This document shows positions 5,357 through 48,795 of a stretch of DNA of 64,000 bases, piece by piece. A program made the translations under genes and the position numbers. How positions within the stretch are numbered: position 1 is the first letter of the stretch; each line of letters starts with the position of its first letter. Source of the DNA: an uncultured Sulfurovum sp. (GTDB lineage: Bacteria > Campylobacterota > Campylobacteria > Campylobacterales > Sulfurovaceae); NCBI GenBank assembly GCA_913055205.1, contig CAJXJN010000008.1:1-64000 (forward strand), in the 5' to 3' direction. The notes beneath the pieces are model-generated. The model was not told the origin of the DNA, did no database searches, and worked only from the letters and a program-made list of their open reading frames with translations.

Positions 5357-5538
5357 GAGACTGTGAAAGAACTAGGTACCTCGGAAGTGAAGGCTTCAGC
5401 CTCACCCAAATATTTGCATACTTTTAGGTTATTTTGACAGAAAAAGCAATTTTAGGAAAAAAAGCTTTTTGGTGGGACTGCACCTAAAGGTATGCACTTC
5501 GATAAAGTCTCCACTTCCATGGGTTCTTTCACAGTCTC
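5357..5538. repeat. REP/BIME-like palindromic element, copy 1 (REP arms 5383-5405 and 5472-5518; outer 16-bp TIR)
   Basis: GAGACTGTGAAAGAAC...GTTCTTTCACAGTCTC ends; GGAAGTGAAGGCTTCAGCCTCAC arm; inverted homologue at 16056-16236. Confidence 0.85.
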
Positions 5539-16005: not shown

Positions 16006-16055
16006 GATGGATTTTCTCTGAGTAGTGTTACTCCCGAATGTGTCCCTGGGCAGGA

Positions 16056-16236
16056 GAGACTGTGAAAGAACCTATGGAAGTGGAGACTTCAGTCCCACCA
16101 AAAAGCTTTTTTGCCTAAAAAAGTTTGTATTTAATGGAAAATATTGCTTTTTCTGTCAAAATAACCTAAAAATATGCAAATATTTGGGTGAGGCTGAAGC
16201 CTTCACTTCCGGGGTACCTAGTTCTTTCACAGTCTC
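16056..16236. repeat. REP/BIME-like palindromic element, copy 2 (arms 16076-16098 and 16188-16210), inverted relative to copy 1
   Basis: GAGACTGTGAAAGAAC...GTTCTTTCACAGTCTC; arms GGAAGTGGAGACTTCAGTCCCAC and revcomp GGAAGTGAAGGCTTCAGCCTCAC. Confidence 0.88.
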
Positions 16237-16332
16237 AGGAGAGACGTAATGAGGAATGACAGTACAGCAGACAGTGAGACAGATATAGGTCAAAAAGAAG
16301 CCAATATAACATATTAGCAAGCCTTAAAAGAG

Positions 16333-46601: not shown

Positions 46602-47366
46602 ATGAGTAAGAAGCTGCTTAAGTTGGTGGGCAAGACCAATGCCGAGTTCAGGCTCATAGGTGAGGGCGATAAAGTACTTGTAGGACTGAGTGGAGGAAAA
46701 GATTCACTGGCTTTGGTGCATGCACTTAAACACATACAGCGTCATGCCCCTTTTGAATTTGAGTTTGAAGCCTGTACCATTAAATATGGGATGCCGGATG
46801 AACATTATGAGTTCCTTTCCAAACATTGTGAAGAGTATGGCATTAAACATACCGTGTATGATACGAATATCTTTGAGATCTCACATGATACCATAAGAGA
46901 GAACTCCTCTTTTTGTTCCTATTTTTCACGTATGAGAAGAGGGGCCTTATATACTTTTGCCGAGCAGGGCGGATTTACCAAAGTTGCACTGGGACATCAC
47001 TTTGATGATACAGTAGAGAGTTTCTTTATGAATATGTTCTACAATGGAACCATGCGAGCTTTGGCACCTATCTACAAAACAGGCAGAGGGTTTCACCTTA
47101 TACGCCCGCTTATACAGGCAAGAGAGTCACAGCTGCGTGCCTTTGCCGAAGAGAACAACTTGCAAGTTATAGGGGATGAAGCATGCCCGGCTATGCTTAA
47201 AGATGTCAAAATGCCTCATGCAAGAGCCTCTACCAAAGAGTGGCTGGCAGGGCTTGAAAAAGAGAATAAAGATATTTTTAAAATGTTCAAAGCTTCATTC
47301 AAGCATATCCATGATGACACCTTTTTAGACCCAACACGCTGGAACAGGGATGATATAGAGAGATGA
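46602..47366 (+). CDS. ttcA: TtcA-family tRNA 2-thiocytidine synthetase-like PP-loop protein
   Basis: VGLSGGKDSLALVHALKH; FCSYFSRMRRG (second Cys of CxxC replaced). Confidence 0.85.
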   Translation: MSKKLLKLVGKTNAEFRLIGEGDKVLVGLSGGKDSLALVHALKHIQRHAPFEFEFEACTIKYGMPDEHYEFLSKHCEEYGIKHTVYDTNIFEISHDTIRENSSFCSYFSRMRRGALYTFAEQGGFTKVALGHHFDDTVESFFMNMFYNGTMRALAPIYKTGRGFHLIRPLIQARESQLRAFAEENNLQVIGDEACPAMLKDVKMPHARASTKEWLAGLEKENKDIFKMFKASFKHIHDDTFLDPTRWNRDDIER

Positions 47367-47586: not shown

Positions 47587-47624
47587 CACAAGGTTTAGAG
47601 AGTTGCACCTCTCTAAACCTTGTG
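47587..47624. other. perfect 16-bp-stem hairpin immediately downstream of the small ORF
   Basis: CACAAGGTTTAGAGAG TTGCAC CTCTCTAAACCTTGTG. Confidence 0.9.
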
Positions 47625-47695
47625 TGTACCCTTTGCATAATTTTACAAAAATAAGCTTTAATGAAAATAAAACCTTTTATTCTTTCTTGCTCTTA

Positions 47696-47798
47696 GGAAG
47701 TGGAGACTTCAGTCCCGCTAAAAGTTCGAACTATTATCAAATTATGCAAAACTTCTTATCATTTATGATTGTGAAGTGGGACTGAAGTCTCCACTTCC
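47696..47798. repeat. REP/BIME-like palindromic element, copy 3 (short form, no outer TIR)
   Basis: GGAAGTGGAGACTTCAGTCCC ... GGGACTGAAGTCTCCACTTCC, perfect 21-bp inverted arms. Confidence 0.88.
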
Positions 47799-47841: not shown

Positions 47842-48795
47842 ATGAATAAATTTACAGTACAAACTGCAGGTCGCATAGACAAAATCCTAGCAACGGAACT
47901 AGATGTAAGCCGCAACCAGGTAGAGAAGCTTGTAAAAGACGGGCTGGTCTCTGTGAATGGTAAGACCATCACAAAAACCAGCTTCAAAGTAACAGAGGGT
48001 GATGAGGTCTCTTATGAGTTCAAAGAAGCAGAGAAACGTGAGCCTGTAGAGATAGACTTTGATGTGGAGATACTTTATGAAGATGAGTATCTCCTTGTTG
48101 TCAATAAACCTTCCGGTTTAGTGGTACATCCTGCACCTTCGGTCAAAGAGCCTACACTGGTGGACTGGTTGGTGAAAAAGGGTATCTCTCTTTCTACTGT
48201 TTCAGGTGAAGAGCGTCACGGTATCGTCCATCGCATAGACAAAGAGACTACTGGGGCATTGGTGATAGCCAAAGACAACAAAGTACATGAAGCTCTCAGC
48301 GAACAGCTGCAGGACAAGAGTATGGGACGCTACTACCTTGCACTTATAGACCACCCTTTAAAAGAGGATGTCATCGTAGATAAACCTATAGGGAGAAACC
48401 CTAAAAACAGGCTGAAGATGGATGTTGTAGCTCATGGCAAACCTGCCAAAACAGCCTTTAAAAAGCTTTTGACCTCTGCGTATGGTGTGGAGCTGATAGC
48501 AGCAAAACTCTTTACCGGGAGAACCCATCAGATACGTGTGCATTTGAACACTTTGGGACGTCATATTTTGGGTGATGATTTATATGGCTTTAAGAGCAAA
48601 AGAGATAAAATAGCACGAGTTAATCTGCATGCATATTTATTATATTTAATACACCCTATTACCGGTGAGAAAATGGAGTTTACCGCACCACTTTTTGATG
48701 ATATGAAACGGTATTTATCTAAATATTTTGATCAAGGTGAAATCGATGAGAAAATTAATCCTCTTACTCTGGGCACTCTTTTTACTAACTTTTAA
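47842..48795 (+). CDS. rluD: RluD-family 23S rRNA pseudouridine synthase
   Basis: S4 domain; HGIVHRIDKETTGALVIAK. Confidence 0.94.
   Translation: MNKFTVQTAGRIDKILATELDVSRNQVEKLVKDGLVSVNGKTITKTSFKVTEGDEVSYEFKEAEKREPVEIDFDVEILYEDEYLLVVNKPSGLVVHPAPSVKEPTLVDWLVKKGISLSTVSGEERHGIVHRIDKETTGALVIAKDNKVHEALSEQLQDKSMGRYYLALIDHPLKEDVIVDKPIGRNPKNRLKMDVVAHGKPAKTAFKKLLTSAYGVELIAAKLFTGRTHQIRVHLNTLGRHILGDDLYGFKSKRDKIARVNLHAYLLYLIHPITGEKMEFTAPLFDDMKRYLSKYFDQGEIDEKINPLTLGTLFTNF

Follow-up and report, generated by a model that had tools for sequence, protein, structure and literature searches.

The segment at 47696-47798, which carries two inverted, bulged hairpins, raises the question of what kind of element such hairpins belong to and which enzyme moves them. 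A preliminary description of this DNA had read them, together with similar pairs at two further loci, as REP/BIME elements mobilised by RAYT transposases. We followed this proposal through the whole 64-kb stretch of DNA (the window) and, by pattern searches and protein searches, through the source genome (G000; Sulfurovum lineage, a draft of 1,660,459 bases in 47 contigs with 86% completeness) and its relatives.

Hairpin arms in the window and in the genome

Five intact arms were found in the window, all at the positions given in Table 1, compared with 0.00 expected from shuffled sequences. The preliminary description had spoken of six arms of two types and listed five. All five were confirmed, and the sixth proved to be a type 1 arm on the minus strand whose loop is split by 24 nt (5472-5518). 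A partly palindromic insertion of about 24 nt in the arm loop was observed in two species (window 5472-5518; L113 on C20 of G000; L147 on C90 of G001) and amounts to a palindrome within a palindrome. Among the three window loci, 47696-47798 alone consists of a free inverted pair (REPIN). It sits in the gap between tandem genes, one of which ends at 47366 and the next of which starts at 47842. A REPIN of equal length (103 bp) with a related spacer lies at C4:379-481 of G000, and no terminal inverted repeat (TIR) was found at either of the two. Immediately 5' of the GGA tag (window 47689-47695) we noted a CTCTTC/CTCTTA-like sequence, which recurs on one arm of the pair in several species and is a candidate cleavage context. 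Upstream of the REPIN, at 47588-47623, a strong perfect hairpin (ACAAGGTTTAGAGAG/CTCTCTAAACCTTGT) probably terminates the gene that ends at 47366.

Table 1. Hairpin arms, REPINs and terminal repeats of the window
Feature	Position	Strand	Remarks
TIR element with long-spacer REPIN core	16056..16236		181 bp; 16-nt TIRs GAGACTGTGAAAGAAC; IS1182-type MITE
Left TIR of 16056-16236	16056..16071	+	
Right TIR of 16056-16236	16221..16236	-	
TIR element, second copy	5357..5538		182 bp; opposite orientation; spacer deletion and one-arm insertion
Left TIR of 5357-5538	5357..5372	+	
Right TIR of 5357-5538	5523..5538	-	
Free-standing REPIN	47696..47798		103 bp; two inverted arms, 57-nt spacer
REP arm type 1	47696..47718	+	GGAA GTGG-A-GACT-TC-AGTC-CCGC, G-U wobble
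REP arm type 1	47776..47798	-	Pattern match
REP arm type 1 inside MITE	16076..16098	+	Pattern match
REP arm type 2 inside MITE	16188..16210	-	Pattern match
REP arm type 2 inside MITE	5383..5405	+	Pattern match
REP arm type 1, loop interrupted by 24 nt	5472..5518	-	Insert partly palindromic; absent from the preliminary description's list

The excess of copies, the intergenic bias and the inverted pairing anticipated in the preliminary description were all borne out genome-wide. At up to three mismatches, 37 arms were detected in G000 against none with the reversed pattern. Only two of the 37 overlapped an open reading frame of at least 100 aa, compared with a coding fraction of 0.857 for the same stretches (binomial P ~1e-27, which is indicative only, the arms not being independent). 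Inverted pairs measured about 100-135 bp. REPs usually exceed 100 copies per genome, a number that, being 'usual', is not strictly defining (PMC2817692); the 37 arms of this 86% complete draft fall below it. Among 60 related genomes, 14 contained the arm, all but one of the same genus and with at most 30 arms each, and the distribution inside this one genus was patchy.

To the two-type contrast the preliminary description had attached a claim of compensatory change and hence of selection for structure. Within the window, this comparison counts as one event, because every type 2 arm shares one TIR element with a type 1 arm; type 2 arms occur in G000 only inside this element. We thus rejected the contrast as independent covariation within G000, where it reflects a single MITE family. 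Support for selected structure came from other copies and species. Among 26 distinct arms from G000 and related genomes, 99.5% of the pair cells of the stem (4+1+4, with a 2-nt loop) were paired, and six of the eight stem pairs changed on both sides (27 cells in total), so that covariation was kept when more copies were aligned. With the partner slid, pairing dropped to 20-41%, and shuffled and slid controls were far lower on both the pairing and the both-side-change measures. These 26 arms were gathered by sequence patterns in which pairing was not enforced, with some added by structure from beside RAYT genes; the collection favours consensus-like arms, and its structure-found members also favour paired ones. 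The hairpins are a real small-repeat family of Sulfurovum bacteria. GTGG at arm positions 5-8 was considered as a canonical tag and rejected, since it forms the stem with the 3' CCAC and covaries with it (GTGA/TCAC, ACGA/TCGT).

The candidate partner enzyme and the GGA tag

Five Y1_Tnp matches were found in G000. The candidate partner is a Y1 HUH transposase of 174 aa encoded at C40:503-1027, on another contig than the window, with an inverted arm pair on either side (C40:382-481 and 1031-1130) and a degenerate arm beyond the second (C40:1138-1160). The protein matched Pfam Y1_Tnp over the cut-off and reached 67.6 bits with the NCBIfam model REP_Tyr_transpos (NF047646), below the curated cut-off of 80, while its match to the IS200/IS605 model NF033573 was weak (28.7 bits). 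A PDB sequence search returned no chain at E 0.001. The AlphaFold model (pLDDT 90.7) matched best the structure 4er8, the E. coli RAYT with a REP hairpin, followed by IS200/IS605 transposases. Both the HUH (H94, H96) and the Tyr (Y150, Y152) columns were invariant in 11 orthologues, and the nearest proteins came from MAGs named Sulfurovum, Nitratifractor and Campylobacteraceae. The preliminary description had predicted a RAYT, and one is indeed present, with arms on both sides and a predicted structure nearest 4er8; judged by its sequence context, the C40 transposase is probably the cognate enzyme of the arms. Orthologues occurred in nine of the 60 related genomes, seven of them arm-positive (Fisher p = 2.5e-4, uncorrected for phylogeny), and seven arm-positive genomes, all incomplete (58-86%), yielded no orthologue. 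Across the class Campylobacteria, 11 of 298 genomes from six genera carried one, each as a single gene copy.

A second RAYT of G000 (C33:88-621, L017; 177 aa) is more canonical and lies over the NF047646 cut-off with 103 bits. It adjoins a TIR element on one side and TTCCCAAGC/GCTTGGGAA palindromes on the far side. Given these other palindromes, its ownership of the arms was not supported; the outer target palindromes described below may belong to it.

The GTAG tag is held to be the mark by which REP and enzyme recognise each other and by which the cut site is chosen. We scanned 20 RAYT loci of the class Campylobacteria, irrespective of any tag, for hairpins with an 8-bp stem and a T[TC] loop within 400 bp. 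Of the 61 hairpins obtained, 59 carried GGA directly 5' of the stem, and no GT[AG]G tetranucleotide was present at the hairpin foot of the arms. Since nearly all hairpins near RAYTs carry GGA, we did not class the arms as GTAG REPs. The stems beside the RAYT genes varied by species, from GTGG-A-GACT (G000) through GTGG-A-GAGT (G017), ACGA-T-GGCT (G019) and CCGG-A-GACT (Sulfurovum bin10034) to GCTTGAAC (G046), GTGAGGTT (G288) and GTGCGACT (G173); the one-base bulge was restricted to a Sulfurovum-type subgroup, the other stems being perfect. Under these strict criteria, GGA hairpins were found beside 15 of the 20 loci and not beside the RAYTs of G012, G036, G031, G370 and G376. G012 and G036 possess variant GGAG/GGAA palindromes of slightly different geometry, G376 has a weaker GGAG candidate, and the RAYT gene of G031 is broken by a stop. 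At the RAYT on C16 of G019 (L074), REP units tagged GGAC and GGAT alternate every 65 bp in a tandem array that extends to either side of the gene.

It is thus very probable that the arms form a RAYT/REP system (REPtron) with the non-canonical tag GGA[A/G/C/T], and, judging from their sequence and surroundings, the hairpins probably owe their movement to a partner enzyme akin to REP transposases. The REP/BIME reading of the preliminary description therefore holds for the identity of the system; it needs amendment for the tag, which is not GT[AG]G, and for two of the three loci, which lie within a MITE.

REPINs enclosed by IS1182-type terminal repeats

The segments 5357-5538 and 16056-16236 represent one element in opposite orientations (97% for arms I1-I3). 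Each has perfect 16-nt terminal repeats (GAGACTGTGAAAGAAC) at its ends and holds one type 1 and one type 2 arm. Further copies were located on C13, C20 and C33 of G000. Copies also lie at the ends of many contigs, which fits a repeat at which the assembly is interrupted. The TIR was matched at 16/16 positions on a 1,751-bp element of a sister species (G001:C12:5803-7553) and at 15/16 on a 1,843-bp element of another relative (G042:C34:599-2441). Both elements contain split transposase ORFs of the IS1182 family, whose best family model was NF033551; the ORF fragments scored 236 (G001) and 200 (G042) bits, below the whole-protein cut-off of 270 bits. The flanks of the G042 element (L141) are inverted copies of each other over ~40 nt, as if it had inserted at the exact centre of a long palindrome. 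Searches of G000, a genome that is incomplete and breaks at these repeats, gave no IS1182 transposase. IS256, considered for a likeness to GAGACTGTG, was rejected as the source of the outer TIRs, as the only IS256-type gene of G000 (C4:56599) lacks such ends; IS1182 is preferred.

At 16056-16236, the putative target duplication (TSD) is identical at 7/8 positions (GCAGGAGA at 16050-16057, TCAGGAGA at 16235-16242). Five of 17 TIR elements, 16056-16236 among them, exhibited an 8-bp duplication (8/8 or 7/8) at the centre of a palindrome, for example C33:11415 with TACACC-TCAGGAGA on both sides, and one more showed 6/8. Several of the 17 had none, and at 5357-5538 it is absent or unclear. The flanks proved palindromic about the insertion point, with a best arm match of at least 10/12 in 8 of the 17 elements versus 0.3% of shuffled flanks, and a mean match of 8.7 versus 6.9 for swapped flanks. 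No standalone copy of this outer target palindrome was found within the window. A further dispersed palindrome, similar to CACCGCTAGGTG/CACCTAGCGGTG, was noticed near several TIR elements (L116, L107, L110).

Because both of their REPINs sit inside the IS1182-type MITE, the loci 5357-5538 and 16056-16236 were probably spread by a DDE transposase and not by a RAYT. Over its spacer, the REPIN in the core of the MITE can be aligned with the free long-spacer REPINs of C14, C5 and C17, which suggests that the REPIN came first and the TIR enclosure later.

Comparable nesting recurred in other species. All 15 short TIR-TIR elements among the fetched loci (117-288 bp, eight species of the Sulfurovum lineage) held REP-like palindromes, of the GGAA type in G000, G001, G021, G033 and G065, of the GTAG type in G023 (L127) and G031 (L163), and of the CGTC type in G094 (L160) and G065 (L166). 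In 11 of the 15, the internal inverted-repeat score lay above all 200 shuffles; the remaining cores are interrupted or locally palindromic. Many of the short elements are situated mid-way in a further palindrome class. Three loci (L051, L055, L066) had been fetched via arms and most via the TIR alone, so the pattern is not only a matter of ascertainment. A tentative idea, which we regard as rather unlikely, is that IS1182-type transposases seek out palindromes and assemble MITEs around REPINs on account of the REPIN structure.

Known systems, alternatives and proposed working

As in described RAYT/REP systems (TnpAREP, REPtrons, REPINs; PMC2817692, PMC3116915, PMC6006769, PMC8266576), a Y1 HUH gene lies between inverted pairs of short hairpins, which are also scattered over intergenic regions, and the resemblance extends to a strand-specific 5' tag, a stem bulge, stems that vary with the enzyme and 4er8 as the nearest solved structure. 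Unlike those systems, the family described here has the tag GGA[A/G/C/T] instead of GT[AG]G, an 8-bp stem and a 2-nt T[TC] loop. Published REP classes comprise GT[AG]G tags, CnGA in class 3 and 'atypical' structures in class 2.6 (PMC6006769). The motifs of our enzyme (NHIH, W[AS]xDY[FY]D and YEYIKYNA) had no exact match among the subclasses in Table 1 of that paper; on the W motif, the nearest is class 3, for which the tag is given as CnGA. GGAA appears neither in the main text of PMC6006769 and PMC3733652 nor in PMC2817692. For Sulfurovum NBC37-1, both GTAG- and CGTC-tagged palindromes are listed, and REPs lodged in other palindromes have been described (PMC3733652). Our arms are likewise dispersed and tagged, but carry neither of these tags. 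IS1272, a member of the IS1182 family, has palindromic targets and is reported to replace the target palindrome without TSD (PMC5678879). The window elements share with this family the palindrome insertion and, with transposons of relatives, the 16-nt TIRs; they differ in being miniature and gene-less with a REPIN core and, unlike IS1272, in having the target centre duplicated over 8 bp in some copies.

Three other explanations have to be weighed against a REPtron. As TIR elements contain two of the three loci in the window and the majority of the near-identical copies of G000, all copies, including 47696-47798, might be IS1182-type MITEs or their remnants with a coincidental RAYT neighbourhood. 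This is extremely unlikely, given that RAYT orthologues of many species have free pairs beside them, among these species G017, G024 and G019, in which no exact TIR was found, that stems differ with the RAYT beside a constant tag, and that 47696-47798 and C4:379-481 are devoid of TIRs. An unrecognised insertion sequence of the IS200/IS605 type, or a passenger with IS605 ends, would also combine a Y1 transposase with bulged hairpins of subterminal type, and the protein does match NF033573, albeit weakly (28.7 bits). However, the RAYT model NF047646 fits far better (67.6 bits), the class survey found a single gene copy per genome instead of many identical IS copies, and the arms are dispersed in pairs without the gene; we therefore consider this origin highly improbable. 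Finally, hairpins that are intergenic, covary in their stems, tolerate a G-U wobble and, as long inverted pairs, fold stably could be kept chiefly as RNA elements, be it terminators or stabilisers of mRNA 3' ends, and not as mobile DNA. An RNA hairpin has no need of a tag, yet GGA is kept beside species-specific stems, and the presence of the arms is patchy inside one genus. As the main explanation, an RNA role is very improbable, although the hairpins may serve as RNA elements in a secondary role.

For the REPtron, we propose the following working. In single-stranded DNA, the inverted pair would fold, and the enzyme would bind the hairpin through single-strand features (the TT/TC loop and the bulged base) and the 5' GGA[N] tag. 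Its HUH/Tyr site would then nick at a dinucleotide set by pairing with tag bases 3-4. Applied to these tags, the guide model of TnpAREP (PMC8266576) would assign TT to GGAA, CT to GGAG, GT to GGAC and AT to GGAT. The REPIN would subsequently be copied or moved elsewhere as a single strand, 47696-47798 being presumably one such free REPIN. Those with long spacers at 5357-5538 and 16056-16236 would have acquired 16-bp terminal repeats of the IS1182 type on either side and thereafter spread as a MITE, inserting in the middle of palindromes of a further class, in some copies with an 8-bp target duplication. The movement of TIR-enclosed REPINs into palindromes would be the work of one or more IS1182-type enzymes, now absent or unassembled in G000. 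For either enzyme, we infer both cleavage and movement.

A tag whose GGA is constant across a bacterial class, next to a stem that is free to change, lets the guide-sequence model, which predicts a separate cleavage dinucleotide for each GGA[N] tag, be tested on a natural variant. It also means that families escape a REP search that relies on GT[AG]G. If IS1182-type transposases do build MITEs around REPINs for their structure, the REPIN would be a ready-made stem bringing both TIRs together, and two unrelated machineries, an HUH enzyme acting on single strands and a DDE enzyme acting on double strands, would both be able to read one 180-bp element. The nesting of REPIN in MITE in palindrome offers a case in which the sharing of one element by two transposition systems can be tested.
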